Positions 1,228 through 56,200 of a DNA stretch of 64,000 nucleotides are shown one piece after another. Location: assembly GCA_024698345.1 (NCBI GenBank), contig JAILRH010000255.1:18148-82147 (forward strand), in the 5' to 3' direction. Below the pieces are notes generated by a model, which worked only from the letters and a program-made list of their open reading frames with translations, was not told where the DNA came from and searched no databases. A program made the translations under genes and the position numbers. How positions within the stretch are numbered: the stretch's first letter is position 1; every line of letters starts with the position of its first letter. This DNA comes from Lachnospiraceae bacterium. Its GTDB lineage: Bacteria; Bacillota; Clostridia; Lachnospirales; Lachnospiraceae.

Positions 1228-1256
1228 TTGACATATTTGACCTAAAAACTTATAAT
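1228..1256 (+). promoter_or_regulatory. Consensus sigma-A promoter upstream of the EAL-like gene
   Basis: TTGACA (1228-1233), 17-nt spacer, TATAAT (1251-1256). Confidence 0.75.
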
Positions 1257-1332: not shown

Positions 1333-2094
1333 ATGGAAAATGAAATTAGGGAGACTAAAGTTGGAGGATTGAGAGCTGTTGAGGTTCTTTATCGAGGCAT
1401 TCGAGGATTTGAATCAGGCGACATTACTTTTCTCCAATCTAAGACAAAATTGAATACACCGGATCTTGGCACCCTGATGCCGGAGAATTACCGCAAGGTA
1501 GCAGAACTCAGCAATCAGTGTGTATCTTTATTTGAACTTGAGTTGGCTCAAGTTTTGGAATCGGTCAAAAACCTCCAAAAGAGAGATTATTATTTTAGAT
1601 GGATGTCTGTATATATGCCTTTGAAGTATCTTGAGATGAGAGGCGTGCAGCACACTATTGTAAAGGTTCTTGAGGAGGCGGAGATAGACACTAACAAGAT
1701 ATGTTTTGAACTGACGCCGGATATATTGGTGGAAGGCAATCAGTTGCACAGCAGGAATATTGAGAATCTTCGGAACAGAGGATTTCACTTTATGATTACG
1801 GAGTTTGGCGGAGCTAACTCGCCGCTTATGAGACTTGCGCATTTTCCTGTTGATTATGTTCAGCTTAGCAGGGCAATCATTGGCTACCTGAAGGATGATG
1901 ACAGATCGCTCTCTGCGGTTAGTTCCATGGTTGAGTTCGCACAGGGACTTGGAGCAGAATCCATTGCAGATGGGGTTTCAACTGTGGAGCAGGCGGAGAA
2001 ACTATATCAGGCACAATGCCTGTATGGTACGGGGCCTCTCATAGGCAAGTTTGTGGGCGAGAGATACCTCAGAAAGAAGAACAGTGATGAATAA
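1333..2094 (+). CDS. EAL-domain-like protein, catalytic motifs degenerate
   Basis: EAL fold landmarks present but altered: 'EVLYRG' (ExLxR), 'CFELTPD', 'ITEFGGANSPLMRL' in place of DDFGTGYSSL, 'ESIADGVST' in place of AEGVE(T). Confidence 0.75.
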   Translation: MENEIRETKVGGLRAVEVLYRGIRGFESGDITFLQSKTKLNTPDLGTLMPENYRKVAELSNQCVSLFELELAQVLESVKNLQKRDYYFRWMSVYMPLKYLEMRGVQHTIVKVLEEAEIDTNKICFELTPDILVEGNQLHSRNIENLRNRGFHFMITEFGGANSPLMRLAHFPVDYVQLSRAIIGYLKDDDRSLSAVSSMVEFAQGLGAESIADGVSTVEQAEKLYQAQCLYGTGPLIGKFVGERYLRKKNSDE

Positions 2095-2169
2095 TTTCAA
2101 ATTATTCTTGAATGGCGTCAAAATGGAAAAAAAGGGATATATGGAAAACAGAAAAGGGGCGATGATATC

Positions 2170-2883
2170 TTGGCAGAGAATACAAAAAATGTTGTAGAAT
2201 TGCGAAGAACTGTTAAGGAAGTCAAAAGACATGTTCTTATATCGAGGATGTTGGCGCTTTTGGTAGGATTGTTAGTAGCGATACTTGCGGTTGCGTATGC
2301 GATATCGTACTTCTATGATAAGTTTGGCAGTTTTACGGTAAAGGTTAACAAATATGACATGGCAAAGCAGGGCTTGTGCTTGTCAGAAACTCCGGATTAT
2401 GACAAATCCATATCGCAGCTTAATGCGAATATAGTTTACGATATGACCAATATTAGTGGCGAGGATTTGCCGGATAATCTCGATAAGATAAATGGTAGCC
2501 ACAATGGAAATAATTACATAGCATACACATTTTATCTTATAAATTCGGGAAGCGACACATTAACTTATGATGGGCAGTTGGTTATTCAGAATGTCACAAA
2601 GAATGTGGACGACGCAGTTAGAGTTACAGTATATCAGAATGGCGAGAAAGTGGTTTACGGCAAGACAAAGTCCAATGGTCAGGGCATGGAGAGTGATTGC
2701 GACAAAGAGTTCTTATCTTCCAATATTGTAATGAAAGATAGAAGAAAAGATTTCAAACCAAAGGACAGAGACAAGTATACTGTAGTTATATGGTTAGAGG
2801 GTAATGATCCTGACTGTATTGATGCTATAATCGGAGGAACCATTAAGTTTCAGATGCAGTTCAATATAGTTGAGGCAACCTAA
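2170..2883 (+). CDS. Membrane-anchored TasA/camelysin-like exported protein
   Basis: Basic N-terminus, one TM 'MLALLVGLLVAILAVAYAISYFY', then beta-rich extracytoplasmic domain; directly upstream of a SipW-type peptidase; TTG start. Confidence 0.55.
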   Translation: MAENTKNVVELRRTVKEVKRHVLISRMLALLVGLLVAILAVAYAISYFYDKFGSFTVKVNKYDMAKQGLCLSETPDYDKSISQLNANIVYDMTNISGEDLPDNLDKINGSHNGNNYIAYTFYLINSGSDTLTYDGQLVIQNVTKNVDDAVRVTVYQNGEKVVYGKTKSNGQGMESDCDKEFLSSNIVMKDRRKDFKPKDRDKYTVVIWLEGNDPDCIDAIIGGTIKFQMQFNIVEAT

Positions 2884-2890
2884 TTCAGCA

Positions 2891-2962
2891 GATTATTATT
2901 ACGAAGCAGATTATTATTACGAAACAGAATATTATTACGAAGCAGATTATTATTACGAAAAG
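2891..2962 (+). repeat. Tandem repeat, 18 bp x 4 (GATTATTATTACGAAGCA)
   Basis: Units at 2891, 2909, 2927 and 2945, each 18 bp with 1-3 differences; lies between the stop of the preceding gene and the ATG at 2975. Confidence 0.95.
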
Positions 2963-2974
2963 GAAACAAAGATT

Positions 2975-3754
2975 ATGAAAAAAGTATTAAAAGTAGCAGC
3001 AGATGTATTAGCTTGGGTATTATTGATTTTGGCATTTATTATTACATTGACAGTTCTTACTTCCACAAAGAATGAAGGAGTTGCGAGACTGTTTGGTTAC
3101 ACACCGATGAGTGTACAGTCAGACTCAATGAAGCCGACATTCAACAAAGGGGACCTTATTATAGTTCATAAGATAGATAATCTTTACGATTTGAAGGAAA
3201 ATGATGTTATTACTTTCTATACAATCGTAGGGAAACAGAGAATTATCAACACCCATAGAATTGTCAAAATTGAAGAAAAGGATAATACGAGAAGTTTTAT
3301 TACACGAGGTGATAACAATCCGGTGGATGACGAACTACCTGTTGAGGCGGTTGATATTATAGGACAGTGGACAGGAAAGAGTTTTGGAAAAATAGGCGTT
3401 GCACTTGACTTTGTTCAGACTCAGAAAGGTTTCTTTATCTGTATTATTATTCCTATAGCGATTATCTTCCTGTTTGAATTATACAAGTTCATTACTACTC
3501 TTGTTGAGATAAAGAGTGGAGATATTTCAGAGGAAGACGAAGAAGCAATTAAGCAGAAAGCTATTGAAGAATATCTCGCTAAACAGAAGAAAGAAGAAGA
3601 GGAAAAAGCAGCGGCTGAGGCAGCGGCTGAGACGGCAGCAAAGGCAGCAGCAGAGGCTGAGGCAGCTGCAAAAGCGGCAGAGGAAGATCCGGCTGAGGAT
3701 ATTTTAGATACTGTAGTTGAGACGGCAGAAGATGCAGAGGTAACAGAGCAGTAA
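2975..3754 (+). CDS. Signal peptidase I, SipW/ER type, with long acidic Ala/Glu-rich C-terminal tail
   Basis: 'SVQSDSMKPTFNKGDLIIV' (Ser box), 'IINTHRIVKI' (His instead of Lys), 'FITRGDNN' (Asp box); two TMs. ATG at 2975 preferred over the TTG ORF start at 2870. Confidence 0.88.
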   Translation: MKKVLKVAADVLAWVLLILAFIITLTVLTSTKNEGVARLFGYTPMSVQSDSMKPTFNKGDLIIVHKIDNLYDLKENDVITFYTIVGKQRIINTHRIVKIEEKDNTRSFITRGDNNPVDDELPVEAVDIIGQWTGKSFGKIGVALDFVQTQKGFFICIIIPIAIIFLFELYKFITTLVEIKSGDISEEDEEAIKQKAIEEYLAKQKKEEEEKAAAEAAAETAAKAAAEAEAAAKAAEEDPAEDILDTVVETAEDAEVTEQ

Positions 3755-3856
3755 TAAAAAGTTATCGAATTACTAACCGACATTACAGAAAATGAAGAAA
3801 CATGGAAACAATTGAGTATTGCTGGATAAGCATGATGAAAAGCAAGGGGTGACTGT

Positions 3857-5419
3857 ATGGACGGATTTTTGAGATGGTTTTTTGAATTTATCTCAGAGAT
3901 GCTTCAGGGATATGCCACTATATTCAGAGGTGTAGGTGAAGGAATTCTCAAGATATTCAACGTAAAAAAATATATAGACATTTTTAAGTCATATTCCGAG
4001 AAGTTTACTACGGCCGAGTGGATTCTTGCCATTTTAGCTATAGTTTTGGTTATTGCGGTGTATTTCATAATTGCATTGCTGATTGTAATGGGAATTAGAA
4101 AGTATATCAGATTCAGACATTCCATAGTCAGTAATGAAGATCTGTTAGAGGAGATTACGGTTCTCCAGAAACAGGTTATAAAGATGGTAAAGGAAAAAGA
4201 CGAAATCATGGCAATGAAAGTTGCACAGATTGGCGGAGGATCAGGATCGGCATTAAGTCTTTCACAGACAGACTTTGAAAATGAAGATGCCGAGAATATT
4301 CAGCAGGCAGCCGGTGAAGAAGGTATCATTATCACATCGACAAGACGTTTTTCCAAACTCTTTGAAGTGGATATGTTCTACAAAGATTACACACCACCTG
4401 AATATGACAACGAAATCACTCTTGAAGGAATTTGCGAGAGATTCAGACTATTTGCATGTTCAAGAATGCATCTCTACTATGATATAAAGACAATTAGATT
4501 GTTTGTGGCAGGCATGGCTTCTACAAAGCTTATTATCCTTCAGGGTATTTCCGGAACAGGTAAAACATCCCTCCCATATTCATTCGGAAAGTTTTTACAG
4601 GTAGATACAACTATTGCGTCTGTTCAGCCATCATGGCGTGACAGAACAGAACTTTTTGGTTACTTCAATGAATTTACAAAGAACTTCAACGAGACAGAAG
4701 TTCTTAGAAGAATATATGAAGCCAGTTACAATGACAATGTTAACTTAATCCTTCTCGATGAGATGAATATCGCGAGAATTGAGTACTATTTTGCAGAGAT
4801 GCTTTCTATTCTTGAAATGCCGAATGCAGATGAGTGGGAGCTTGACATTGTACCTAATGTGTGGAGTTCGGATCCTGTAAATCTGGATCATGGAAAACTC
4901 AGGATACCTCAGAATATCTGGTATATTGGAACAGCTAATAACGATGATTCCACATATGCTATTTCTGATAAGGTATATGACCGTGCGCAACCTATCAATC
5001 TTGATGCGAAGGGCGTTGAGTTTGAAGCGGAAGACACAGAACCACTTTCGCTTAGCTTTGAACACTTAAACGCTATGTTCAATGAAGCGTTTGAAAAATA
5101 TCCGGTTTCGGAAGAAAACCTTAAGAAGATACATCAGCTTGACCTTTGGGTAATTGACAAGTTGCGTGTGGCTTTTGGTAACCGTATTATTAAACAGATG
5201 AATATGTTTGTTCCTGTTTATGTAGCATGTGGAGGAGATGAACTGGATGGAATAGATTACGTTCTTGCAACAAAGATATTCCGTAAGTTTGAGTCACTCA
5301 ACTTAGCTATGCTTAGGGATGAACTTAAGGAACTTGTGGTATATATGAACAAGTCCTTCGGAAAAAACAGAATGGCAGAGTCCATTGCATATCTTGAGAG
5401 ATTGCAGAAACTATTTTAA
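3857..5419 (+). CDS. Membrane-anchored McrB-like AAA+ ATPase
   Basis: N-terminal TM 'WILAILAIVLVIAVYFIIALLIVMGI'; Walker A 'GISGTGKTSL'; McrB-type Walker B 'LILLDEMNIARIEYYFAEMLSILE'; sensor segment 'IWYIGTANNDDSTYAISDKVYDRA'. Confidence 0.85.
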   Translation: MDGFLRWFFEFISEMLQGYATIFRGVGEGILKIFNVKKYIDIFKSYSEKFTTAEWILAILAIVLVIAVYFIIALLIVMGIRKYIRFRHSIVSNEDLLEEITVLQKQVIKMVKEKDEIMAMKVAQIGGGSGSALSLSQTDFENEDAENIQQAAGEEGIIITSTRRFSKLFEVDMFYKDYTPPEYDNEITLEGICERFRLFACSRMHLYYDIKTIRLFVAGMASTKLIILQGISGTGKTSLPYSFGKFLQVDTTIASVQPSWRDRTELFGYFNEFTKNFNETEVLRRIYEASYNDNVNLILLDEMNIARIEYYFAEMLSILEMPNADEWELDIVPNVWSSDPVNLDHGKLRIPQNIWYIGTANNDDSTYAISDKVYDRAQPINLDAKGVEFEAEDTEPLSLSFEHLNAMFNEAFEKYPVSEENLKKIHQLDLWVIDKLRVAFGNRIIKQMNMFVPVYVACGGDELDGIDYVLATKIFRKFESLNLAMLRDELKELVVYMNKSFGKNRMAESIAYLERLQKLF

Positions 5420-5455
5420 CATACTTGCACAACTTAGAAAGGGAAGGAAGAGCTA

Positions 5456-7705
5456 TTGAACGAGAAGTATGGAGAGTGGTATCAGCAGTTGCAGGATGCT
5501 CTTGGAAACATGCAGGATAATGATTACTATGACGATATGAACAAACTTGTAGACTCAGGAAACATCAGTGTCTCCATGAATCGAAAACTGATGGAGAAGA
5601 GTATTGATGTATCCTGGGTTGAAGCAATAGAAAATGGACTTGTTCATGTTGACAATGTAGTCAGAAATCCCAGCAGAACAATAGTTGACGTTGAAGAAGT
5701 TGTTCCGATAGCACTGTCTAGGAAGATTACAGTAGAATCCATAAAGCATTTGGCCCAGCATACGGATTTGATTCAGAGCGTAGATGAAAAAAGAGGGACA
5801 ATAACGCCTTCTAAGATTCTAAATATTCACAAAGAAGAAAGTCTGGCGACTTATGAGAATCGATTTGTGAATACTCTTATAGACAGATTGTACATCTTTA
5901 TTATGCTTAGATACGAGAAACTATCTCAGGTAGAAAAGGATGAGGAAGTCTTCGAGATGGAGATGGATAACGAGATAAATGACCAGAGTGGTCATGTATA
6001 TAACGTCAAGATATCCATTGATTCCAAGAAAAATCTTGAGTCCACTAATGAGAGTGGATATACCATTTGGCAAAGGGTTGAAAAATTGAAAAAGACCTTG
6101 GAAGGTTACAAGGGTTCAGAACTTTGTACTACTCTGGGGAATAACTTTGTCCAGCCACCCATTATGCGTACAAACGCCATAATGAAGAATGTGGATTTGA
6201 AAGCATGTCTTTCTTTGTGGCAGTATATCTTAAGTTATGATAAAGCGGGTTATGAAATAAATGTTGAGGATACAGCACTAAATCCGGACAAAGCTTATCT
6301 TCAGGATGTGGGTCAGATGATGGCTTGCAATCTTATGCTTTTTAGAACTTATACTGAAGGTGATAAGGAAGAAGCAGAGTTTGTTCCTATTGGAAAGAAG
6401 AACTATGGTGGGTTCAAGCCTAAGGTAATCAAAAGGTATAAGTCTGAACTTTTGTCAGGTTCTTATGATTTGCATACAGACGGAGCTGTGGGATATATTG
6501 AAGCGGAAGGTATGAATGCGTTTATCAATAAGGATTTGCCGGAAGATTCGGATGAGATATTTGTTCAGATAGACAAGGCAATAGCCATTGAGCGTAATTA
6601 CATCGCAGAAGCAGAGAAGAAGCGAATGGAAGAATTGGCGCTCAAGGAAGAAATAGAAAAGAGAAGACAGGAGCGAATTCAGAGACTCGAGGAAAAGAGA
6701 CGAATCGAGGAAGCAAAGAGAGAGGAACGAGAAAGAATTCGTCGTGAGCGAGAAGAAGAAAAGAAACGTGTTCAGGAAATGCTTGAGAGAAGACGTGCTG
6801 AGATTGAGGCAGAAGAGAGAGAAAGAGCAAGACTTGAGGCAGAGCGTAAGGCGAAAGAAGAGGAGGAAAGACGACAGGCTGAAGAAGCTGCAAGAGAGGC
6901 AGCTGAGAGAGCCAGAATCGAAGAAGAAAAGAAGAGTATCCGAAGTGAGTTTGGTGAGGCAGAAGGTGTCGACACTAATATATTAGATAGCAAGAAAGAG
7001 CAGAGAGACAAAGTTAATGCTTCGGGAATGGTTACAGCTGATGATATAGAGGAAGCTGAAGAAAAACTCAAGGAAGATGCAGAACTTAACGGTGAACTTC
7101 CGAAAGAAGTAATGGAAGATCCTAGAGAAGTTGCAGTTAGAATCAAACTTGAACAGCAGAAGCTTGAGAAAGAAAGAAAAGAAAAAGAAAGAGCACAGAG
7201 ACTGAAAGCAGAGCGAAACAGACTCGAAGCTAAGCCTTTCAGGGAAATATACAAAATGTATACCTACAACCCGATATATGCAATTCCAAGATTCTTCATC
7301 TGGTTGTTATATGTATTATTTGGATATATTCCTAAAGATACTGAAAATCCTGATCAAAGGCGTATACTTGCGCATAGAGAAGAAGTCGCAAGACAGGAAG
7401 AGTACGAGAGAGGCGAGAGAGAAAAATACGAGGTATACTACAAGAAATACTCTACTGCTTTTCCGTATAATGTTGTCAGATATTTTAATGACTTGAAGTT
7501 CAAACGCAAGAGAGCAAAGGCTAACAAGGGAAAACCAAAGCCTGTATTCACCCCGCCTAACAGAACTCCGCAGGAACAGAAAACTATTGACATGGAAATG
7601 AAGAGACTTTACAAGACGTACCATGTTGGTGTTGTAGAGAGTACAAGACGTCTTATTAAGAAGATAAAAGGAAAAGAGGACGATTTGCAGGACAATGCAG
7701 CATAA
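5456..7705 (+). CDS. DUF2357-like N-terminal domain plus long highly charged coiled-coil/single-alpha-helix protein
   Basis: 'ILNIHKEESLATYENRFVNTLIDRLYIFI' resembles DUF2357-type McrB partner proteins; residues ~380-510 are nearly continuous E/K/R-rich helix; C-terminal hydrophobic stretch 'IPRFFIWLLYVLFGYIP'. Start TTG 5456 with AAGGAAG RBS. Confidence 0.6.
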   Translation: MNEKYGEWYQQLQDALGNMQDNDYYDDMNKLVDSGNISVSMNRKLMEKSIDVSWVEAIENGLVHVDNVVRNPSRTIVDVEEVVPIALSRKITVESIKHLAQHTDLIQSVDEKRGTITPSKILNIHKEESLATYENRFVNTLIDRLYIFIMLRYEKLSQVEKDEEVFEMEMDNEINDQSGHVYNVKISIDSKKNLESTNESGYTIWQRVEKLKKTLEGYKGSELCTTLGNNFVQPPIMRTNAIMKNVDLKACLSLWQYILSYDKAGYEINVEDTALNPDKAYLQDVGQMMACNLMLFRTYTEGDKEEAEFVPIGKKNYGGFKPKVIKRYKSELLSGSYDLHTDGAVGYIEAEGMNAFINKDLPEDSDEIFVQIDKAIAIERNYIAEAEKKRMEELALKEEIEKRRQERIQRLEEKRRIEEAKREERERIRREREEEKKRVQEMLERRRAEIEAEERERARLEAERKAKEEEERRQAEEAAREAAERARIEEEKKSIRSEFGEAEGVDTNILDSKKEQRDKVNASGMVTADDIEEAEEKLKEDAELNGELPKEVMEDPREVAVRIKLEQQKLEKERKEKERAQRLKAERNRLEAKPFREIYKMYTYNPIYAIPRFFIWLLYVLFGYIPKDTENPDQRRILAHREEVARQEEYERGEREKYEVYYKKYSTAFPYNVVRYFNDLKFKRKRAKANKGKPKPVFTPPNRTPQEQKTIDMEMKRLYKTYHVGVVESTRRLIKKIKGKEDDLQDNAA

Positions 7706-8399
7706 AGGGACAATAAAAAAAACACTTACGATTTTAGAATACATAATATTAGTCCTGGGACTGATTTTTTTGGCATTTGTATTTATCAATACTAGTAGAG
7801 GTAGGGCAGTTGACATTTTTGGCATGAATATACTGCATGTTGTTACGGGGAGCATGGAGCCAACTATTGAGAAGGGACAATATGTCCTTGTCGTAGAAAA
7901 AGATTTGGATAAACTGGCAGAAGAGGATATAATCGCCTACTACTCAGAGGATCCCGATGTATACGGGAAGATAGTAATCCATAGAGTTATTGAAATAAAT
8001 GATGACGAAACCTATGTAACTAAGGGGGATGCCAATACCAAGGCTGATGATTATCATGTTAGAAAAGATCAAATCATAGGCAGATACACATCTGAGATTT
8101 GGTTTCTTGATTGGCTTACATCATTTACAGACATGAAGAAACTGATGCTGATGGTGGTAGTGATTCCGCTGTTTTTGGTTTGTGCCTACGAGTTTAGTAC
8201 GGTTACAAAGTTGTTCTACAAGTTGAAGAGCGAAGAATACCGGGAAAAACAGAAAGAAAAAGGAATAGAAACTATGGAGGAAAAGCTGGAGAGGCTGAAG
8301 AGAGAGGCAGTTGAGGAGTACCTGAGGCAACAGGATTCAGGTGCTGAAGTTGCAGCGAATGAAGTTGAAGATACAGATACAAAACCAACAGGGCAATGA
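7695..8399 (+). CDS. Second signal peptidase I, SipW/ER type
   Basis: 'VVTGSMEPTIEKGQYVLV', 'KIVIHRVIEI', 'YVTKGDAN'; two TMs and charged cytoplasmic tail; overlaps the previous CDS end by 11 bp (translational coupling). Confidence 0.9.
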   Translation: MQHKGTIKKTLTILEYIILVLGLIFLAFVFINTSRGRAVDIFGMNILHVVTGSMEPTIEKGQYVLVVEKDLDKLAEEDIIAYYSEDPDVYGKIVIHRVIEINDDETYVTKGDANTKADDYHVRKDQIIGRYTSEIWFLDWLTSFTDMKKLMLMVVVIPLFLVCAYEFSTVTKLFYKLKSEEYREKQKEKGIETMEEKLERLKREAVEEYLRQQDSGAEVAANEVEDTDTKPTGQ

Positions 8400-8415
8400 A
8401 TTGTAGAAAAGGCAG

Positions 8416-8955
8416 ATGATTCATATGGCAAAAGACAAAGATAAAAATAGGAAAAATAAAAACGAAAAAGTAGAGGAAATGCTTAATTATACCTATCGTG
8501 ACAGTGGGCAGGAATTTCTTATGCAAAAAAAGATGCTTAGGTCCATTGTTTTGATGATTATTACAATGATGGCATTGATTGTGTTTATTGCGCTATACTT
8601 TGGTGAGAGACAAAGAGTTCAGGAAACGTATCAGAGACAATTTGACAAAGCACTCGACAGCGCAATAGAACATATGGAAGATTATGTTAATGCAGACGGA
8701 GATTTTGAACTACGATACAGAATGATTTTTACTGAAATAACAAATATCAATACGTTTTCATTCCTGCTTGAGGGGAAGGAAGCAGAACATAAATCGATAA
8801 ATGAATTGTATACAGTATTTCTCAAGTATCCTGAGCAGACGAGCGGGAGAATAGAAGAAGTTAAAGAGATAGTTGAGAAAATAAAAACATCAGAAAAAGA
8901 TGCTTATGAACAACTGGATCAATTTATTGCTTCGATTGATAAGAAGGGATTTTAA
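8416..8955 (+). CDS. Small single-TM protein of unknown function
   Basis: ORF 179 aa in operon; TM 'IVLMIITMMALIVFIALYFG' followed by helical extracytoplasmic region. Confidence 0.65.
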   Translation: MIHMAKDKDKNRKNKNEKVEEMLNYTYRDSGQEFLMQKKMLRSIVLMIITMMALIVFIALYFGERQRVQETYQRQFDKALDSAIEHMEDYVNADGDFELRYRMIFTEITNINTFSFLLEGKEAEHKSINELYTVFLKYPEQTSGRIEEVKEIVEKIKTSEKDAYEQLDQFIASIDKKGF

Positions 8956-9084
8956 ATTATAGCTATTGTTTGCCTTTGTGTGAAAGACGGCAATAGGAAA
9001 ATGATGATATTAGAAATGGCTATATAAAGAAATGATAAAAACGAAACGACATGTATGGTGTTTGAGTAAGAAAGGATGAGGCAT

Positions 9085-9309
9085 ATGAGTAGAAAAAGTC
9101 GTCTAAAAAAAGAAATAAAGGTATGTCAGAAAACAATAGTGGAGATAGAGAGAAGACGTGCCAGATCCCAGTCGGCTCTGGTTCAGGCAATCCTTTTACA
9201 GGAGGAACCTGATGAGGCAGATGTTGAGTGGTTCAATAAATATACCGGAGAGATAACAGCCTGCCGTAATCATATGCTGGAGATGAAAAAAGAACTGGAA
9301 TCGCTATAA
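9085..9309 (+). CDS. Small helical protein, unknown function
   Basis: RBS AAAGGATGAGG before ATG 9085; strongly helical charged sequence (MSRKSRLKKEIKVCQKTIVEIERRR...). Confidence 0.55.
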   Translation: MSRKSRLKKEIKVCQKTIVEIERRRARSQSALVQAILLQEEPDEADVEWFNKYTGEITACRNHMLEMKKELESL

Positions 9310-9398
9310 ACTGGCAAAAAATATACCTAAAGATTTCTGGTTTTAGGCTTAATTGTGTAAAATATCGAGTCTTGAGAAAAAAAGTTTTATATTCTATG

Positions 9399-9462
9399 GT
9401 GCATAAAGTGCATAATATTCAATAAAAAGATTAAATGAAAGGTTTTTATGCAGTGTGCATAA
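9399..9462 (+). promoter_or_regulatory. Cluster of GTGCATAA half-sites (direct repeat plus palindrome), candidate operator
   Basis: GTGCATAA at 9399-9406 and 9408-9415; palindrome TTATGCA-GTG-TGCATAA at 9446-9462. Confidence 0.5.
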
Positions 9463-9511
9463 GAATGAGCCAAAAAAATACAAAAACAAAGCAAAAATAT
9501 ACAAAAAAAAC

Positions 9512-9540
9512 TTGTGAAAATGACATTTTTTGTATATAAT
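9512..9540 (+). promoter_or_regulatory. Sigma-A-like promoter of the major TasA-like gene
   Basis: TTGTGA (9512-9517), 17-nt spacer, TATAAT (9535-9540), preceded by A-tract-rich DNA. Confidence 0.65.
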
Positions 9541-9582
9541 TAAGATAGTTAAAAAAGGTAGACTCGTAATTATAGTGGGGTC

Positions 9583-9598
9583 TTGGAAACGGTTTCAA
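9583..9598 (+). promoter_or_regulatory. cre-like (CcpA) operator in the 5' UTR
   Basis: TTGGAAACGGTTTCAA matches the Bacillus cre consensus WTGNNARCGNWWWCAW; lies between the -10 (9535) and the RBS (AAAGGAGG, ~9610). Confidence 0.55.
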
Positions 9599-9626
9599 AG
9601 GAAAAGTGAAAAAGGAGGAAACGATT

Positions 9627-10604
9627 ATGAAAAAAACAAACATGAAAACAAGGAAAAGATTGGCCGGTGCGGTGTCAATGTTATTAATATCGAGTATGAT
9701 GCTCGGAACCGCAACATATGCATGGTTCACAATGAATAATGAAGTTACCGTAACTGGTATGTCAATGAAGACAACTGTAGAAAGCAACTTACTGATTGAT
9801 GATGTTGCAGCTTGTCATGGTGGTTCATGGAGTGCAGGTAGTTATGCTACTAATGATTCAACATTTAGATCATCTACCACCCAAACAATTGGTAGTGCTG
9901 TTTTAGCGCCTTTATCAACAACAAATGGATATAACTTCTTTGCAACTTTACCTAACAATGTAAAGGGTGATGGAGATGCTATTAATAATGCTTACACAGC
10001 TATTACTCAACTTAGTGACTTGACAGGTTTAGGATATAATTCAGCAACCCATACTTGGCTTGATTATCATTTTGTATTAAAGGCTGTAAACACTGATAGT
10101 AGTGCAACTAAGAATATTAACTTGTCTCAACTTAAGATGACATTTAGTAAGGCAACAGATTCAGAAAAAGCTTGGCGTGTTGCAATTCATTCTAAGAAAT
10201 TCGAAACAGCAACTGTTAATGGAGCAAAGACACTTCCTGATATTGATGCAAGTAATACTGGAGTTACAACACATATTTATGCTCCTGCCAGTGCAACTAA
10301 TTTTGAGGCTAACAAAGCTGTAACTTCAACAACTGCAACCGGTAGTGTTACATATGCAAGTCAAGTATCTGATGCAACAATTGCAACTGTAGCTGCAGGC
10401 GCAACAGAGTACTATGAAGTAGTAGTTCGTGTATGGCTTGAAGGTGAAGATAAAACTTGTAATGTAAATACATTCCAGTCATTGGTTGATGGAACATGGA
10501 GTTTTGAAACTAAATTTAAGCTTGAAACTGGAACAACAAGTGGTGTATATGTAATTGAACAGGCTGTTACATCTGCTGGATCGGGATCGGGATCGGGATC
10601 ATAA
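9627..10604 (+). CDS. TasA/camelysin-like SipW-dependent surface protein, predicted major fibre subunit
   Basis: Signal segment 'MLLISSMMLGTATYAWFTMNNEVTVTGMSMKT'; beta-rich body; own promoter and terminator; C-terminal (GS)n tail. ATG 9627 follows AAAGGAGG. Confidence 0.7.
   Translation: MKKTNMKTRKRLAGAVSMLLISSMMLGTATYAWFTMNNEVTVTGMSMKTTVESNLLIDDVAACHGGSWSAGSYATNDSTFRSSTTQTIGSAVLAPLSTTNGYNFFATLPNNVKGDGDAINNAYTAITQLSDLTGLGYNSATHTWLDYHFVLKAVNTDSSATKNINLSQLKMTFSKATDSEKAWRVAIHSKKFETATVNGAKTLPDIDASNTGVTTHIYAPASATNFEANKAVTSTTATGSVTYASQVSDATIATVAAGATEYYEVVVRVWLEGEDKTCNVNTFQSLVDGTWSFETKFKLETGTTSGVYVIEQAVTSAGSGSGSGS
10578..10601 (+). repeat. Hexanucleotide microsatellite GGATCG x4 coding for a Gly-Ser tail
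   Basis: ggatcgggatcgggatcgggatca immediately before the TAA at 10602. Confidence 0.9.
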
Positions 10605-10758: not shown

Positions 10759-10799
10759 TGCGTGTTTAGAATTAGAAGTGTCTATTTGGATAAGCATTG

Positions 10800-10826
10800 G
10801 TCCCCTCTTCGGAGGGGACTTTTTTT
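10800..10826 (+). terminator. Intrinsic terminator with UUCG tetraloop
   Basis: GTCCCCTC-TTCG-GAGGGGAC followed by T7. Confidence 0.9.
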
Positions 10827-11163: not shown

Positions 11164-12063
11164 ATGATTAACTTAAAACATAAATTTAGAACTGTTTTTA
11201 AATTGTATTCCCATTTCTTGGTTTTGTTACTATTATTGATTGCGTCAATTGTATTGATGATTATTATTTTTAATGGAGCTATTGCTTGGCTGGTTGCAAA
11301 TAAACAAACCAACACATCCGGAATGCAAGTGTCCATAAAGAAATCTGATGCCGTGGCAGATTATTATGTATATATATATGATGTCAAGGAAGATGATGTA
11401 CATTATACAGGGCAAACAGTAAATAAGAACGGAATTGCGATTACTTTTTCACCACCGACATTACAGAGTTTGGAAATGCAGTTTTTCGATACAATTTTTA
11501 GATTGAAAAACCGACACACACCGGCTATTGTTCGTATTAGGCTGACGGACTTAGCCGAAGAATGGATTAATGGAGGAAATGTATCGATAACTCTTAAAAG
11601 AGATACGTCGATACCTGAGTATACAACGGAAAATGGGGATAAAAAACTTAATGAATATCTTACAAGTATGATGAGGTTCTCTCTTGCACAGGATAAAGAT
11701 TGGTACAATGCCGATGCAATCACTATGTTCAATAATGTAGATTCTGTGTTATATCCCAAAATTGTTACAAATAGAAATTATAATCCCTCAGGTTCGTCAG
11801 CCGTGTTTACAACAGTTACCACGTCAAATGATGTTATAACAAACATTAGCAAGACGGATGATATAACCATTACAACGTCTTATGAGGCGTCAGACATAGT
11901 AAATGGATATCTGGATGTTTATATGTTTATTACTTATGACGAAAATCTTGTTAATAAGTATGATTTGTCCAATATGAACATTGAAGGAACTGCGGTTGCA
12001 CATGTAACGACTTTAGAAAATGATTTGGAGTTACTTAGTGTTTCTTTTTCGGAAAGTGAGTAA
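11164..12063 (+). CDS. TasA/camelysin-like SipW-dependent surface protein
   Basis: TM then 'NGAIAWLVANKQTNTSGMQVSIKKSDA'; RBS GGGAGGTGG; paralogous N-terminus to 9627 and 17732 products. Confidence 0.7.
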   Translation: MINLKHKFRTVFKLYSHFLVLLLLLIASIVLMIIIFNGAIAWLVANKQTNTSGMQVSIKKSDAVADYYVYIYDVKEDDVHYTGQTVNKNGIAITFSPPTLQSLEMQFFDTIFRLKNRHTPAIVRIRLTDLAEEWINGGNVSITLKRDTSIPEYTTENGDKKLNEYLTSMMRFSLAQDKDWYNADAITMFNNVDSVLYPKIVTNRNYNPSGSSAVFTTVTTSNDVITNISKTDDITITTSYEASDIVNGYLDVYMFITYDENLVNKYDLSNMNIEGTAVAHVTTLENDLELLSVSFSESE

Positions 12064-12118: not shown

Positions 12119-12203
12119 AAGAAAATTCGTTAAGTAGATGAAAGGTAAGATGAGTGAGTTGAGAAAGAAGTAAAATATCTTGAAACAGAAAGGAGTTGGG
12201 CGT

Positions 12204-15200
12204 ATGAAAAAATACAGAAAAATTATATTTGTTATATGTTTTATTATTTTTGCAGTTGCCATGACTCCAAATGCGTTTGCATGGTTTTATTCTTCGTTGC
12301 AGACTCAACCGGATATTACAGCATATATCCACAAATCTTATTTTGAGAGTGGGGATGGGACTTCGTCTGCGCAGTTTATTGACGGAACGCATGGAACAGA
12401 TGATTCGGGATGCGCATTTGAGATAAAATATCCGGTCCAGTTGTACTATTTTGCATGGCTTCAGGCTCTTGGATACTTTAATATTCCGAATGACGGCGAA
12501 AATACAATAAACCAGGTTTATTTTTATCTTTCGAGTGATCTTGATATGACAGGATATGTATTACCGGAGATTGGAACCGAAGAATATCCTTTCGTTGGAA
12601 ATTTCGATGGTAATGGTCATACTATTTCCAACCTTACGGTACAGAATGTTACAACAACTTCAGATTCGTCAACTACACTGACAGATATTCCGGATGAAAT
12701 TGCAAATTCCGAGATTGTAGGATTTTTTGGAGTGGTAGGATCGCTTTATACAAGTGGTGCAAATTCCGGGACGGTTAATGGGGCAGTGGATAGTGATGGC
12801 AGCTTTGTTGCTACAGCGGGATATACCTACAGCAGTCTTGTTAATGAAATAAAGAATTTTACTATAGACAATGTAACTATCAAAACTGAAACAGATAATG
12901 CATTGATTGGTGCGATTGCAGGATACGTTAATGGCAATGTATCCAATTCGGCATGCTCTGATATAATGCTGAAAATAAAAGATCATACATCTACAATTGG
13001 AATTACATCAGCAATATCAGATTACTCACTGGTGGGGTATTGCACAGATGCATATAAATTTAATCTTAACGTTTCCAAAAATACAGTCTACGCACCTGAA
13101 GAGACTGACAATATGATTTATAAGATAATCCAGGGTGAGGGTGCAGGCTTTGGTGGAAGTGTAAACATGCAGAACTTTTATAACAGGATGAGGAGTGCGT
13201 ATAATGCAGCTTCTTGGCCGACATATGTTTCTACAAAAAATTATATTGTGGATGTTGATGGAGTTAGAACATTTCAGAGCCAAAGCTCAAGTTCAGATTC
13301 TTACCATAAAGCAGTTGATTATGGAAGTGGGGGTAATTATTCTTTTGTTAAGTATCAGTCCGGTCAGGAAACGACAAATTTCTTTTACGTATATGGCGGA
13401 CTGGAATATGACAGCACTATTGTAACAACAACATATTATTATGATAATGAAACAGCTTACTTCATTAAAAGCAATGGCAAGTATTTAAATTTGGATTCAA
13501 ATCATAATATTGTTGCAGGTGATACTGGTGTTACGAAATGGCTGGTTGATAATTCGGGATATTATTATTCGGTTGAATATAATGATTCTACATCTCAGAA
13601 TTATTATTATCTGAATGCAAACGGAAATACAGATGTCCATATACAAAGTAGTGGAAGTACAGTTTGGAATAATAGTAATTCCCAACTATATTTAACTTCA
13701 GGAGGGGTAAATTACTATCTGTATTTTGATGGAAGTAATTGGCGACTTGTATCTAATATAATGCGTATTTCAGACGGAAACGGAAATTATCTTGGAGTTA
13801 GTAATGGCGACATTGCAAATGTTAATGAAAATGCATCTGTTTTTTGGAAGTATGAGAGTGATTGCTGGTCATGTGAAACAGATGGAAATACATATTATCT
13901 GAGAAATAATGGTGGTAATTTAGAGGTTACTACGAATGTGCTTCAAGCCACACAGTGGAATTATAGTGGCGGCACAATTTCAGACGGTAATTATTATTTA
14001 AGGTACAATAATGGAATGTGGTCTTTGGAAACTCTAACTATAACGCAATATTATGTTACAGATGGAAAGGGAAATTATCTAAGATATAATAGTGGTTTAA
14101 CATATTCAAACAATAAATCAAATGCGACTGTTTGGAATTTTTCGAATCATAGTGGAACCGGAACTATTGGCAATGGAACAAGAAATTTGAGATATTATTA
14201 TAATACACTAACAACCGGAACGGGAACCGGAACTTCATACAATTGGACTACAACTTCAGATTCTATTTATTATACTTCAGGAGGAAATAATTATTATATC
14301 AATTATTCAAACGGATGGAAAGCAACGGTAGGTCAGCAAGGGAGAACAATTAGTTACAATGGACAATATCTTAATATTATATCTACAACAGCAGTTGGAA
14401 CGTCAGAGGGTATTGGAGACTATAATGATGAAAACGGAAATACTTTATGGATGATTAATGGAAATACAGTATATACATATGTTGGAGGTACTGTATATTA
14501 TATGGTAAGGAATGGAACAACAGGAATAAGAGTACAAACAACATCTACGACGTGGTCAAGTGTAGGGTCAGATCAAATTTATTATCGAAGCGGTGGAAGG
14601 TATTATTATGTAAGTTATAACAATGGATGGGCGTTATCTCAAACATCACAGTATCTATCAATGTCAAATTTGGTGGAGTTGTATCCAAAAGTGTATACGG
14701 AACCGTATATTGATTTGTCACAACACAGTGACGTGGTATTTGATTTTGATAGCCCAGTAGTATCTTTCGCTAATACAACAGAGCAGATAATGAAATCGAG
14801 AGTTACGAATGATACTGAAAAAACATATGGGCATTCAAATGCTACGTTTTTTCCGATTAACTGTGTTGGAAGTGAGACCTTCAATGAATCATATCCAACT
14901 ATCACAAACGCTAATAAAAATCTTTTAGAGCCTAGCGATAATAATACGGGATATGTTGTTTCCGGCAATTCTATTGGGAACCAGACTTCATATGGTTATG
15001 ATGGCACCGGTGATATTCGTATATCAACTTATGCAATGTCATCTATTTCGGCATCAACTAATCAGTCAAGCAGTTTCACTTACTCAAATTCATATGATAG
15101 CAGACTTGAAATTATTACTGCGGTTAACAATGGCACATACAGTGGTTTTTACAGAGTATCTGATACATATAATGCAAACAACTCAAATATAAATGCAACT

Positions 15201-16994
15201 ATGTCAAGTGCCGTGGCAAACAGTAGAAAAGTAGATTACAACACATTGGGACTTAAGAGATATAAAGATGCCAGAGCAGCACTGTCTGATACATTTATGA
15301 ACGAATCAAATATTTTTGGTCTTCACTTTATGGAGGCAACAATTGATAAAAATAATTATATTGTCATTCCGGAAGCCAATATTAATGGTGAGATATATGA
15401 AAATTACAAAGTTCCAAAGGATAGTATAGATTTTAATGTTAAAAGACGCGGATTTATTACAGTATTTGCAGGTACTTATTTTAATAATAATAGGGCATTC
15501 TTCTCGCTTCATGAGATAACCCGTTATAAGGAAGATGATCCGGAAGTTATAAGTGGAACTTACGAAGTTAACGACATAAAAGATATCAAGGAAATATCAA
15601 ATATTTATAAGGCGGCAGTAGGAAGTGATTATATTTATCAGTATAGCGACGGAACATTCTCAAGCAATGCTGCACGAGGAAATCTGGCTTTCAATATGGG
15701 TTGGATGACGGATACAGAATCCTATTCAACATGGGTTCAAAATGCGGTATATTATTTTGAAATACCTGTTAATGCGGGGGAATTTGCCCTTGGTTCAGTT
15801 CCGGATAAGAGAGGTGCATATCTCTTCTATCTAGACATTGCTGCAAATGCAGGTACTGCTGAAGATAAAGAACGAAGAACATTTACAGAAAAGTTTATGG
15901 ATGAAACTTTCAGTATGCAGCTTCCTAAGGGAGTTCAGTTAGTTGAGTCAGGTAATAGTTACAATGCCTCAAAACCATACGAGTTTCTAACTGTAAACAT
16001 TGGCTCAGGTTTTAGTGGACAATATCCGTTAGTAAGAACGGGAGATGTGTTTACCTATACAGATAATGCGAATACAGAATTGACATATATTGGAGGAGCA
16101 TTGACAGCCCAGACAGTTTCGGGAAATGTTGCGAATGACTATGTGTATTATCCAAACGGATATAAATTCAAATACATTGAGCATGTGACGGATAAGGGGA
16201 TTGATACAGACAATTATGACCATTTCCTTGTTGAAACAACGGACACATATGATTCGACGGGAAATAGAACCGGAAGAAGTGTAAGTCTGTATTCAAGTAT
16301 ATTAAACGGAACAGATTTTACAGATAATGAGGTGATTGACGAGGATGATTTAGACCATATCATTACATTTACATACAATCCAACCGGGCATGATAATATA
16401 GCTATGCGATGCGTAAGAGCGGCGTCAGAAGGTGGTTTTACTATTGCTTTTAATGAGAACATTACGCTGTTGACAACAAGTATAACCAGCGACAATCCGG
16501 ATGTGCATGTCAACTTCGGAGATACTACAGGAGACTTAACCACCGTAACTGCAGCAAATAATCTTAATGGAGTTACAATCCCTGCCATTAATTTGGATGG
16601 CACCGCCGGTGGAGATGACAATGACGAAGGACTGTATCACAAGTCAGTTTACGGACCGGCACTTGCACAGTATCAGACTTATTATACAGGCACGGGTGCA
16701 AATGCAACACTTGATACGGACACATCATTTACAATGGCAAATCTTGCAGCAGGTAATTCAAATCAGAACAGGACGCTCACATACAACATTACCCTTACTC
16801 CGGGAGCATCTGCAGGAACAGTTACGGTATATGCGAGACGCCTGATAAACAGCTATAGTTACACGACACATACATTTAATACAGTTGAAGGGGAGGAAGC
16901 AGTTGCTTCAGGAACGATAAATGTAACAGTTGGAGGCGTAAATATAAACAGTACCGCAATTGGTACACAGACAACAACAGTTACCATTCAGTGA
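12204..16994 (+). CDS. Large secreted surface protein with GLUG-like N-terminal region and repeated Y/G/N-rich beta-trefoil-like modules
   Basis: Signal segment 'FAVAMTPNAFAWFYSSLQ'; repeated ~40-60 aa units of the form 'NGKYLNL...W...GYYYSVEYN' ; RBS AGGAG before ATG 12204. Confidence 0.75.
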   Translation: MKKYRKIIFVICFIIFAVAMTPNAFAWFYSSLQTQPDITAYIHKSYFESGDGTSSAQFIDGTHGTDDSGCAFEIKYPVQLYYFAWLQALGYFNIPNDGENTINQVYFYLSSDLDMTGYVLPEIGTEEYPFVGNFDGNGHTISNLTVQNVTTTSDSSTTLTDIPDEIANSEIVGFFGVVGSLYTSGANSGTVNGAVDSDGSFVATAGYTYSSLVNEIKNFTIDNVTIKTETDNALIGAIAGYVNGNVSNSACSDIMLKIKDHTSTIGITSAISDYSLVGYCTDAYKFNLNVSKNTVYAPEETDNMIYKIIQGEGAGFGGSVNMQNFYNRMRSAYNAASWPTYVSTKNYIVDVDGVRTFQSQSSSSDSYHKAVDYGSGGNYSFVKYQSGQETTNFFYVYGGLEYDSTIVTTTYYYDNETAYFIKSNGKYLNLDSNHNIVAGDTGVTKWLVDNSGYYYSVEYNDSTSQNYYYLNANGNTDVHIQSSGSTVWNNSNSQLYLTSGGVNYYLYFDGSNWRLVSNIMRISDGNGNYLGVSNGDIANVNENASVFWKYESDCWSCETDGNTYYLRNNGGNLEVTTNVLQATQWNYSGGTISDGNYYLRYNNGMWSLETLTITQYYVTDGKGNYLRYNSGLTYSNNKSNATVWNFSNHSGTGTIGNGTRNLRYYYNTLTTGTGTGTSYNWTTTSDSIYYTSGGNNYYINYSNGWKATVGQQGRTISYNGQYLNIISTTAVGTSEGIGDYNDENGNTLWMINGNTVYTYVGGTVYYMVRNGTTGIRVQTTSTTWSSVGSDQIYYRSGGRYYYVSYNNGWALSQTSQYLSMSNLVELYPKVYTEPYIDLSQHSDVVFDFDSPVVSFANTTEQIMKSRVTNDTEKTYGHSNATFFPINCVGSETFNESYPTITNANKNLLEPSDNNTGYVVSGNSIGNQTSYGYDGTGDIRISTYAMSSISASTNQSSSFTYSNSYDSRLEIITAVNNGTYSGFYRVSDTYNANNSNINATMSSAVANSRKVDYNTLGLKRYKDARAALSDTFMNESNIFGLHFMEATIDKNNYIVIPEANINGEIYENYKVPKDSIDFNVKRRGFITVFAGTYFNNNRAFFSLHEITRYKEDDPEVISGTYEVNDIKDIKEISNIYKAAVGSDYIYQYSDGTFSSNAARGNLAFNMGWMTDTESYSTWVQNAVYYFEIPVNAGEFALGSVPDKRGAYLFYLDIAANAGTAEDKERRTFTEKFMDETFSMQLPKGVQLVESGNSYNASKPYEFLTVNIGSGFSGQYPLVRTGDVFTYTDNANTELTYIGGALTAQTVSGNVANDYVYYPNGYKFKYIEHVTDKGIDTDNYDHFLVETTDTYDSTGNRTGRSVSLYSSILNGTDFTDNEVIDEDDLDHIITFTYNPTGHDNIAMRCVRAASEGGFTIAFNENITLLTTSITSDNPDVHVNFGDTTGDLTTVTAANNLNGVTIPAINLDGTAGGDDNDEGLYHKSVYGPALAQYQTYYTGTGANATLDTDTSFTMANLAAGNSNQNRTLTYNITLTPGASAGTVTVYARRLINSYSYTTHTFNTVEGEEAVASGTINVTVGGVNINSTAIGTQTTTVTIQ

Positions 16995-17731: not shown

Positions 17732-18664
17732 ATGATAAAGAGAAATGTGGATGATAAAAAAGACAAAAACATAAGATTTATTATTATAAAAAACTGTATA
17801 TTGTTGCTATTGTTGCTCTTTACACTTATTTTTGGCGCAATTGCCTGGTTCTCTAATAACAGACAACTACTTGTAACAGGAATGGAAGTTAAGATGCAGG
17901 AACCGCCTTATACCATTCAAACCCGAAACGAAAGCGGTTACTACAGTGATATTTATGAATCGCTTGATACCGGAGCTATGGAGTGGAAGGTTTCCGAAGA
18001 TGACAATTTTGACAATCATGAGGATGATTTGGATCATGAAGAGGATGAACCGGGACTTGAGCCCGGAGACAGCGGGGTACTTGAATTCAGAGTCAATCCT
18101 AATTCTGATGATACCATAACGGTTGATTGTGTTTTTGGTATTAGAGCATATCTCGAAGTGACAAGTATAGATGAAAACGATAATTCTGTGACAGAGATAA
18201 CAGAAATAGATGACAGTACGCTCTTACAGTTTGTCAAGTCACATATTATACTTTTTGAAGATTATGATGAACAAACAGGAAAATATAGCAACCTGATTGG
18301 CGATGATCAGTCGTTTAGGCGTGTGCTTACAAATCAGACATACAGAAGAAATGAAAATGTATACACCAAAGTTTACTGGGTTTGGCCGGAACATTTAGAT
18401 GAACTTACAGATGAAGATGATGAAGAAATTATATATGACCCGACTGAACGTACAGATGTTATTACATACATCGCCAATAACAAGAATGGCTTTTTTAAGG
18501 ATTGTAATGATAGTGTTACGCAGGTTGCAGCAGATCTTACAGCTCTTTCTTCAGCTTATTCGACTTCAATCTATAATAGATATAGTATGAAGTATGACAA
18601 TACAGATCTTGATATAGGAAACAATGTATCTTATGTGATTCTATCAATGCAGGTAGAAGAGTGA
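17732..18664 (+). CDS. TasA/camelysin-like SipW-dependent surface protein, highly acidic
   Basis: 'LIFGAIAWFSNNRQLLVTGMEVKMQ' shared with 9627/11164 products; D/E-rich body. Confidence 0.7.
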   Translation: MIKRNVDDKKDKNIRFIIIKNCILLLLLLFTLIFGAIAWFSNNRQLLVTGMEVKMQEPPYTIQTRNESGYYSDIYESLDTGAMEWKVSEDDNFDNHEDDLDHEEDEPGLEPGDSGVLEFRVNPNSDDTITVDCVFGIRAYLEVTSIDENDNSVTEITEIDDSTLLQFVKSHIILFEDYDEQTGKYSNLIGDDQSFRRVLTNQTYRRNENVYTKVYWVWPEHLDELTDEDDEEIIYDPTERTDVITYIANNKNGFFKDCNDSVTQVAADLTALSSAYSTSIYNRYSMKYDNTDLDIGNNVSYVILSMQVEE

Positions 18665-18688: not shown

Positions 18689-19513
18689 ATGATAAGTGAA
18701 TCAATCAAAGAGGAGGTGGCAGAATTGAAAAGTTTAATATATACAATTAGGAAGATGTCACTTCGGACTAAGATTATTCTTGTTATGATGATTGTACTTA
18801 TTTCTTCTGCTACTGTATTTGCCTGGCTTGCCTATCAGGACAAGATAGAAGCCTTGAGTAAGATAAAAGAGCCACCGTCCATAAACCTTGCATCGGGTGG
18901 TGATGATTCGGCGTTGTACATATCCCTTGAGAATATTGATGTTTCAGTTGCTGTGGAGAAATATGTTGTGTTCTCTATTGAACCGGGAAAGTATTCAGCA
19001 TATGATATTCAATTATCACATACAACAAACATTCCATTTACATATGAACTATACAGGGTTAGAGAGGATGAAAACGGAACCATAGAATACACAGATCATA
19101 CAAGAGATGTGAATGGAGGAGAAACTATTTTAAAATACAGTATTATGGCCAATGCAACCGGTACAACAGCCGGAAAATTAATCCTTAATGACATTAATCC
19201 TGACGATGGTTCCACAGGAAGGATTCTGGGAGATGAGGGAGAGCTTTCAGCAAGCCGTAAGAATTATGTGGCAACGGATGAAGTTAATCAATATGTAAAG
19301 CCAATATATAGTGTGGTGAGAAGAGTGCCACAGTTTAATGAACATACCGATGGAAGTAGTGATAGAGATTATTTTGTGATTAAACTCACTTGGACTCCGG
19401 GTAACAGTAATATGACGTATGCTGATGCAAACTATTGGAACTATGCATTCAATAACAAAGAAACAGATATTATTTATATTTCGGCTAAGCAGAACACGTA
19501 TGAAGAACCTTAA
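18689..19513 (+). CDS. TasA/camelysin-like SipW-dependent surface protein
   Basis: 'MIVLISSATVFAWLAYQDKIEALSKIKEPPSINLASG'; alternative TTG start at 18725 has a better RBS (GAGGAGGTGG). Confidence 0.65.
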   Translation: MISESIKEEVAELKSLIYTIRKMSLRTKIILVMMIVLISSATVFAWLAYQDKIEALSKIKEPPSINLASGGDDSALYISLENIDVSVAVEKYVVFSIEPGKYSAYDIQLSHTTNIPFTYELYRVREDENGTIEYTDHTRDVNGGETILKYSIMANATGTTAGKLILNDINPDDGSTGRILGDEGELSASRKNYVATDEVNQYVKPIYSVVRRVPQFNEHTDGSSDRDYFVIKLTWTPGNSNMTYADANYWNYAFNNKETDIIYISAKQNTYEEP

Positions 19514-32873: not shown

Positions 32874-32937
32874 TCGGTATATCTGTTGATGTGTTCATTG
32901 AACCATAACAGACTTGATTATCAGATATGTTAAGATG

Positions 32938-32973
32938 AATGCTTCGGGTGATATATTTGCCCGAAGCATTTTT
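32938..32973 (+). terminator. Intrinsic terminator
   Basis: AATGCTTCGGG-tgatatatttg-CCCGAAGCATT-TTT. Confidence 0.85.
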
Positions 32974-32983
32974 AAGTGTTGTA

Positions 32984-33017
32984 CAATCACGGAACAAGAG
33001 TAGTGGTTTCGGGATTG
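32984..33017. repeat. Dispersed hairpin repeat family A, copy 2
   Basis: CAATC-acggaacaagagtagtggtttcgg-GATTG. Confidence 0.65.
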
Positions 33018-33038
33018 GCATTAATAAGGAGTAAGAAT

Positions 33039-33728: not shown

Positions 33729-33833
33729 TAAAGCTCACAACAGGAGAAGAACCTCACATATGTAAGTGGTGGAAAAAAACAGGAGCGCTAATGCGTTTCT
33801 TATGACATTAAAGAATTGGAGAAAAATGCGATT

Positions 33834-55779: not shown

Positions 55780-56200
55780 GTACCTCCTAGATACGAAAAA
55801 TGGTGTTTGGGAGGTACATTTTTGTGCGAAAAGAAGAGTTATGTTAACAATAATTAAAGGGTATTTACCTACTAAACGTTAAAAACTTGATTTAGTAGGT
55901 CATAATCATGTGAAAAAGGAATGTGTTATGTTAACAAATTAAAAAAATATATACCGCCCAAACTCTAAAAAAGCCATATGAGTGGTAGTGATTGTTTGAA
56001 AAAATGAAAAAGAGTTAACATAATTGAAAAATGAAATACCGCCCAAACACTAAAAAGGCCATATGAGCGGTAGTGATTGTTTGAAAAAATGAAAAAGAGT
56101 TAACATAATTGAAAAATGAAATACCGCCCGAACACTAAAAAGGCCATATGAGCGGTAGTAATTGTTTTAAAAGATAAAAATAGTCAACATAATTAAAAAA
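55780..56200 (+). repeat. Tandem array of five ~85-bp hairpin units
   Basis: Stem-loops starting at ~55780, 55867, 55952, 56037, 56122 (spacing ~85 bp); each followed by an A-rich linker containing a GTTAACA-type motif. Confidence 0.9.

Follow-up and report, generated by a model that had tools for sequence, protein, structure and literature searches.

Why should a relative of the McrB restriction motor be encoded between two signal peptidases of the kind that process surface fibres? To our knowledge, no energy-using cytoplasmic motor serves SipW/TasA-type fibres, and we know of no McrBC relative with a demonstrated role outside nucleic-acid defence. The question is raised by a locus of a Lachnospiraceae bacterium (assembly GCA_024698345.1, contig JAILRH010000255.1) that lies in the 64,000-nucleotide stretch analysed here, hereafter the window. 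In this locus, genes for a transmembrane (TM)-anchored McrB-like AAA+ ATPase and a DUF2357 protein stand between genes for two SipW-type peptidases (SipW-1 and SipW-2), preceded by a membrane-anchored exported protein (P1) and followed by fibre-like genes. The locus encodes a real, conserved machine that is probably related to surface fibres; its composition, its conservation, a gene fusion and the loss of a nuclease are firm, and action on SipW-dependent processing or assembly is likely. We propose, with a probability of about two in three, that it is of the type named CoCoPALM (Bell et al. 2024, PMC11090510), and that its membrane-bound McrB-like NTPase acts through the DUF2357 protein on SipW and on the assembly of TasA-like pilins.

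The initial annotation, made from the sequence alone, described the ATPase as McrB-like and membrane-anchored, and both descriptions hold. When the profile of its family was searched against all PDB sequences, the sole match was Escherichia coli McrB (E = 5e-6), and its Pfam matches were weak (AAA_5/AAA_22). Walker A, the DE of Walker B and an N-N-D-D motif are invariant in the alignment, and a hydrophobic segment near residue 59 aligns across single-type members, those from loci with one such ATPase rather than the two of the twin type. The N-N-D-D motif occurs in 93 members, at the same spacing to K-V-x-D-R as in generic NxD relatives of the same family; its second D also satisfies NxxD, making the motif alone slightly ambiguous as an NxD mark. 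The N-terminal part comprises the TM segment and a helix. Pfam recognised no DNA-recognition domain on the ATPase, nor any FtsB/DivIC match in the N-terminal part of 15 members. In a tree whose deeper order is uncertain because of long branches, the single, twin and one outlier membrane form group together, apart from generic relatives (support 100/97). The window's ATPase clusters with those of Eubacterium ruminantium and Ruminococcus albus (L054, L066) rather than with other Lachnospiraceae orthologues, a grouping that might reflect transfer among rumen bacteria. Outside the main clade, one locus (L141:7012-11334) pairs a DUF2357 protein with another McrB-like protein of the membrane, which has five or more TM segments.

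The partner of the ATPase carries its DUF2357 domain at residues 65-176 of 749 (E = 2.5e-9). It had been described as having no obvious nuclease, and a search for a PD-(D/E)XK or other active site bore this out. No PD-(D/E)xK motif is conserved in the alignment of the DUF2357 proteins. An AlphaFold2 (AF2) model of residues 1-400 (mean predicted local distance difference test score, pLDDT, 73.5; predicted TM-score, pTM, 0.50) contains helices, a long beta-hairpin at residues 163-193 (local pLDDT about 75-89) and a helix at its end; no alpha/beta domain resembling a nuclease is present. On these two results we rejected a nuclease concealed in the protein, and its loss is firm at the level of sequence. 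Scans of the operon genes (1333-10604) against Pfam and NCBIfam likewise found no nuclease family, and the gene order of relatives shows no recurrent candidate. Many family members end near residue 380; in the window's protein a helix is predicted at 365-399, and residues 401-600 are 48-80% K/R/E/D/Q. In McrC, McrB is touched and activated by a stalk of the N-domain (McrBC work cited in PMC11090510), and the modelled hairpin is a candidate for a stalk of this type that would touch the McrB-like protein.

The association of these genes with SipW is widespread. A profile scan of genome contigs returned at least 547 relatives of the ATPase, and 80 of those loci were read. In a sample of 200 genomes of the bacterial family, the window's own included, 13 have a single-type orthologue, two the twin type, and eight more only weaker, generic McrB relatives. 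SipW is present in all 13 single-type genomes, compared with 64 of the 200 overall (hypergeometric P = 1.5e-7). Across a sample of the class, the ATPase occurs in 21 of 391 genomes from 11 families, and five further single-type loci from other families have an identical gene order. Neighbours were counted in all frames over 94 loci, with the loci that have enough flank as denominators; being related, the loci are not independent, but the choice among them was made by ATPase rather than by neighbourhood. Upstream of the ATPase lie SipW (59/69), P1 (63/69) and a gene for an EAL-domain protein (51/69), and downstream DUF2357 (59/60) and SipW (56/60). The sole locus with ample flank on both sides yet no SipW is of the twin type, and six generic McrB loci have no neighbours of the SipW, P1, EAL or DUF2357 types. 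The linkage to SipW/TasA genes, on whose conservation the initial annotation had staked its reading, thus extends across many families. Its idea that the McrB-like pair had been turned to the export, processing or assembly of SipW-dependent surface proteins finds computational support, and the pair may act there as a motor. Within the window's genome (3.7 Mb) there is one McrB relative of this kind, and there are six EAL matches. The arrangement of SipW, McrB and DUF2357 genes is far beyond chance, because the only two SipW genes above the TIGR02228 cut-off and the only DUF2357 gene of that genome are at this locus.

Both peptidases appear competent for catalysis. SipW-1 and SipW-2 score 92.4 and 90.8 bits against TIGR02228 (cut-off 51.85 bits). 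Against the SipW model NF046067 they give E = 1.8e-32 and 5.4e-28 (112.5 and 97.8 bits); neither reaches its curated equivalog cut-off of 190 bits, so both are SipW-like rather than the Bacillus equivalog. The catalytic Ser, His and Asp are present in both. Ser and His are near-universal among SipW-1 homologues, with Asp in 82 of about 87 aligned, and all three are conserved in nearly all aligned copies of SipW-2.

The closest tie between the two halves of the locus is a gene fusion. In 21 Ruminococcus-group genomes, including isolates of R. albus and R. flavefaciens, the DUF2357 protein and a complete SipW-2 form a single in-frame polypeptide of 973-1053 aa (998 aa in R. albus 8, with the SipW portion at 734-996), and Pfam finds DUF2357 and Peptidase_S26 within one such chain. 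The McrC-like subunit is therefore physically coupled to a signal peptidase in these genomes. The predicted topology of the chain, a cytoplasmic DUF2357 domain and charged helix followed by a hydrophobic stretch, the SipW TM segment, the catalytic domain and a second TM segment, fits such coupling. The fusion is the best evidence to suggest that the McrC-like protein works jointly with the peptidase, and it offers a concrete, testable physical link between the NTPase pair and SipW.

P1, by its model, resembles donor-strand pilins. Its AF2 model (pLDDT 87.6) is a TM helix with a beta-sandwich, for which Foldseek returned FimA and a Pyrobaculum bundling pilin (E<1e-3). On re-alignment, the TasA fibre 8aur matched with Z 6.9 (rmsd, the root-mean-square deviation, 3.1 over 129 residues), a modest score below 8; Sulfolobus 0406 threads and Pap/Fim pilins were also returned, and donor-strand filament proteins thus recur. 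No Pfam or NCBIfam sequence family, TasA and TapA included, matches P1, and it has no AWF-type cleavage motif. Its profile and that of the fibre proteins detect each other, and both share a W-L-E-G-x-D motif close to the C-terminal end. The fibre genes bear SipW-type signals (TYAWF, AIAWF, AFAWF), and those tested, including the first fibre-like protein (9606-10604) and its tested relatives, have no Pfam or NCBIfam family. TapA has been proposed as an anchor or first subunit for TasA (PMC9674648), and by analogy P1 may be the anchor or first subunit of the fibre, as its uncleaved-looking TM helix and its gene position suggest. The largest exported protein, of 3474 aa, is a candidate fibre or adhesin cargo. 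Pfam gave no support to the giant exported proteins being GLUG adhesins.

These components suggest a sequence of events. The McrB-like protein would form an AAA+ ring at the cytoplasmic side of the membrane, with the N-terminal TM segment as its anchor. Its DUF2357 partner has lost the McrC nuclease but keeps the domain by which McrC touches and stimulates McrB; the helical region of this partner would tie it to SipW-2, a tie made covalent in Ruminococcus. Hydrolysis of NTP would then act on SipW and on TasA-like substrates fresh from export. It would set the time of signal-peptide cleavage or supply the energy for it, and subunits would be handed to the membrane-anchored P1, seeding a donor-strand-type fibre. 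The degenerate EAL protein, with an intact GGDEF-EAL partner in some clades, may make the machine responsive to cyclic di-GMP (c-di-GMP). In its fullest form, a restriction-derived McrB/McrC NTPase that has become a membrane-bound, second-messenger-gated driver or gate of signal-peptide processing and of TasA-like donor-strand assembly, this proposal is tentative, and we would put it at somewhat less than even odds.

The evidence for second-messenger control comes from the genes around the core. Across 49 aligned homologues, the EAL protein has lost its catalytic positions: DDFG is replaced (TEFG in the window), KxD has mostly lost its K, and in 39 of them ADG stands in place of AEG, while the E and R of the ExLxR motif are mostly retained. 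The residues of an active phosphodiesterase are thus not retained in the operon's EAL protein. Elsewhere among the Clostridia, SipW-2 is followed by a membrane protein of 750 aa that combines GGDEF-like motifs with an intact EAL domain, its DDFG and KLD motifs kept; proteins of about this size and composition, with the EAL domain mostly intact, lie directly or shortly 3′ of SipW-2 at L100, L103, L109, L117, L121, L122 and L146. In another Lachnospiraceae subclade, an HD_5-domain gene adjoins or precedes P1 (L035:8778-9440 on the minus strand, with equivalents in L033 and L037-L040), in the place of the window genome's EAL gene. Since a degenerate EAL gene heads the operon and an intact sensor-GGDEF-EAL gene follows SipW-2 elsewhere, c-di-GMP-type control of the locus is suggested.

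The same neighbours lend themselves to a different explanation, that of a membrane regulatory hub in which McrB/DUF2357 and the SipW tails sense the envelope or c-di-GMP and control the expression or activity of fibre genes, moving and assembling no subunits. AAA+ NTPases often serve signalling, and the degenerate EAL, GGDEF-EAL and HD-domain genes would suit such a role. SipW of Bacillus subtilis, moreover, functions in surface-adhered biofilm formation as well as in cleavage (PMC4238804). We nevertheless consider this unlikely, as Pfam finds no DNA-binding or output domain on either the ATPase or the DUF2357 protein, and the fused DUF2357-SipW chain, whose peptidase looks active, implicates processing as such.

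Less probable still is a membrane-anchored, type IV restriction-like defence system that merely travels with surface-fibre genes. Its McrBC ancestry would accord with this, as would the generic NxD McrB relatives of the same bacterial family, whose neighbours include neither SipW nor P1. A candidate model of PADLOC, PDC-M26A, also matches the ATPase, but the match spans the AAA domain only, and we rejected it as a defence assignment. CoCoNuTs that lack a nuclease of their own always have HEPN or another nuclease (PMC11090510), unlike the present locus, with none in the DUF2357 protein and no nuclease gene seen beside it. That the link with SipW, P1 and EAL has stayed stable across many families also argues against defence, as does the lack of ATPase relatives in viral contigs. 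The locus is not a restriction system. An origin from a phage or mobile element was likewise rejected, since viral contigs yielded no relatives and the window contains neither Rfam nor tRNA features. That the neighbourhood is one of chance or history, with no functional tie, is scarcely credible, since nothing except the SipW-less twin loci favours it, while an order kept over about 90 loci, the co-occurrence with SipW and the 21-genome fusion contradict it.

Several observations weigh against the CoCoPALM-type machine proposed here. Of the 64 SipW-bearing genomes in the family sample, 51 are without this ATPase, so that SipW/TasA systems generally do not need it; the B. subtilis SipW/TasA system works without one. 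The sister twin branch, with two McrB-like ATPases and DUF2357, has no adjacent SipW, and three of its genomes are SipW-free, so clients other than SipW are possible. Confidence in the DUF2357 model is moderate, and searches of its core fold against the PDB (Foldseek, VIA-align) returned no useful match and no McrC, an outcome that, at such confidence, does not itself count against the proposal. In one Lachnospiraceae subclade the DUF2357 protein is short, lacking the helical extension that is present in the window's clade. The fold matches of P1 are modest. At the twin loci (L042:5397-12200, L043:9940-11301, L136:7749-15592, L137, L138, L139 and L140), two TM-anchored ATPases flank one DUF2357 protein and are followed by large TM-anchored exported proteins, which suggests that the ATPase/DUF2357 pair serves other surface proteins too.

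Open reading frames across 2170-9309 match the co-oriented order first described. The order holds in about 90 further loci of Clostridia, where a degenerate EAL gene is followed by P1, SipW-1, TM-anchored McrB-like AAA+, DUF2357, SipW-2 and fibre-like genes. The initial annotation nevertheless began the unit too late, missing the EAL gene, and overlooked the apparent TasA-likeness of P1. The transcription unit probably runs from EAL through P1, SipW-1, McrB, DUF2357, SipW-2, the small TM protein and the 77-aa helical protein to the first fibre gene, since a promoter match, likely the operon start, precedes EAL and the next strong plus-strand terminator-like site follows that fibre gene (Table 1). 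SipW-1 was correctly recognised, but its start was placed at 2870; it is very probably ATG 2975, because a ribosome-binding site and this ATG are conserved, and the upstream frame consists of an intergenic repeat absent from the closest relatives. The copy number of that repeat could vary. The 3474-aa protein is followed (31326-34457) by genes for an exported protein with Big_2 Ig-like character, for a TM protein and for a sortase, and an 85-bp tandem repeat (three copies, 91% alike) lies at 55930-56200 between annotated-size frames.

Table 1. Features of the locus, in window coordinates
Feature	Position	Strand	Basis or remark
Sigma-70 promoter-like site, TTGACA-17-TATAAT	1228-1256	+	12/12 consensus match; consensus match only
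Stand-alone EAL-domain protein, catalytically degenerate	1333-2094	+	PF00563, E = 1.2e-33
P1, N-terminal TM helix and extracellular beta-sandwich, apparently of TasA/pilin type	2170-2883	+	AF2, Foldseek, re-alignment
18-bp tandem repeat, 4.1 copies, in P1/SipW-1 gap, not SipW-1 coding	2887-2959	+	
SipW-1, ER (endoplasmic reticulum)-type signal peptidase, two TM segments and charged cytoplasmic tail	2975-3754	+	
TM-anchored McrB-like AAA+ ATPase, 520 aa	3857-5419	+	PDB profile match, TM, motifs
Walker A, GISGTGKT	4544-4567	+	Alignment columns invariant
NxD signature, N361-N362-D363, then D364	4937-4945	+	NNDD in 93 members
DUF2357 (McrC N-domain-like) protein, 749 aa, long charged helical region, no nuclease domain	5456-7705	+	
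Predicted long beta-hairpin, DUF2357 protein residues 163-193, candidate McrC-type stalk	5942-6034	+	AF2 model
SipW-2, overlapping DUF2357 stop	7695-8399	+	TIGR02228 match, Ser/His/Asp kept
Small TM protein	8416-8955	+	Recurs downstream in 34/60 loci
77-aa helical protein, recurrent downstream neighbour	9076-9309	+	
Fibre-like protein, SipW-type signal TATYAWF	9606-10604	+	Profile cross-detects P1 family
Intrinsic-terminator-like hairpin with T run	10799-10820	+	
Exported fibre-like protein, GAIAWL signal	11164-12063	+	
Exported protein, 1604 aa, AFAWF signal	12180-16994	+	No Pfam family
Three further exported fibre-like proteins	17732-18664, 18689-19513, 19563-20645	+	
Exported protein, 3474 aa	20710-31134	+	No Pfam family

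Should the proposed machine prove real, it would stand apart, as a class of pilus-assembly motor, from the type IV pilus, chaperone-usher, sortase and known TasA pathways. The ATPase pair probably drives or governs surface-fibre assembly in Clostridia of the rumen and gut. Its hosts include the cultured rumen cellulose degraders R. albus and R. flavefaciens, and also E. ruminantium, in a setting where fibres and plant adhesion matter.

Compared with known systems, the locus shares with E. coli McrB/McrC a profile-detectable AAA+ core and an adjoining DUF2357 partner, yet it differs in having no PD-(D/E)xK nuclease or DNA-recognition domain and in having a membrane anchor and a surface-protein context. 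Unlike CoCoNuTs, it has no adjacent HEPN or other nuclease among the scanned operon genes. Gram-positive pili have signal-peptidase-like assembly factors, and thus a peptidase homologue dedicated to a surface-filament locus; the peptidases of the present locus differ in keeping their catalytic residues and in being coupled to an AAA+ partner. SipW-class peptidases, apparently TasA-like beta-sandwich proteins and a probable anchoring or seeding subunit are shared with TapA-SipW-TasA of B. subtilis (PMC9674648, PMC10151520), to which the window locus adds an NTPase complex, a second SipW and c-di-GMP-type proteins; P1 has no AWF-type motif, and neither Pfam nor NCBIfam recognises it as TasA or TapA.

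The initial annotation knew of no described system with this composition. In this it was mistaken, since Bell et al. (2024, PMC11090510) had given the name CoCoPALM to a clade of NxD GTPases that carry an FtsB-like TM/coiled-coil part as a fusion and are linked to signal peptidases, in one paragraph that gives no mechanism and defers analysis to a later paper; its preprint aside, we found no other paper that uses the term in that sense. The window locus has the NxD motif, the N-terminal TM segment and the signal-peptidase association, and with CoCoPALM it shares an NxD McrB-like GTPase/ATPase with an N-terminal TM part, a McrC homologue and adjacent signal peptidases; the charged helical region of the DUF2357 protein is a candidate coiled coil. 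The kind is therefore known by name. Relative to the main text of that paper, the two flanking catalytic SipWs, the DUF2357-SipW fusions, the apparently TasA-like anchored P1 and the SipW-type substrates, the degenerate EAL and GGDEF-EAL link and the SipW-less twin branch are new, and they advance CoCoPALM from a bare name to a specific mechanistic proposal.

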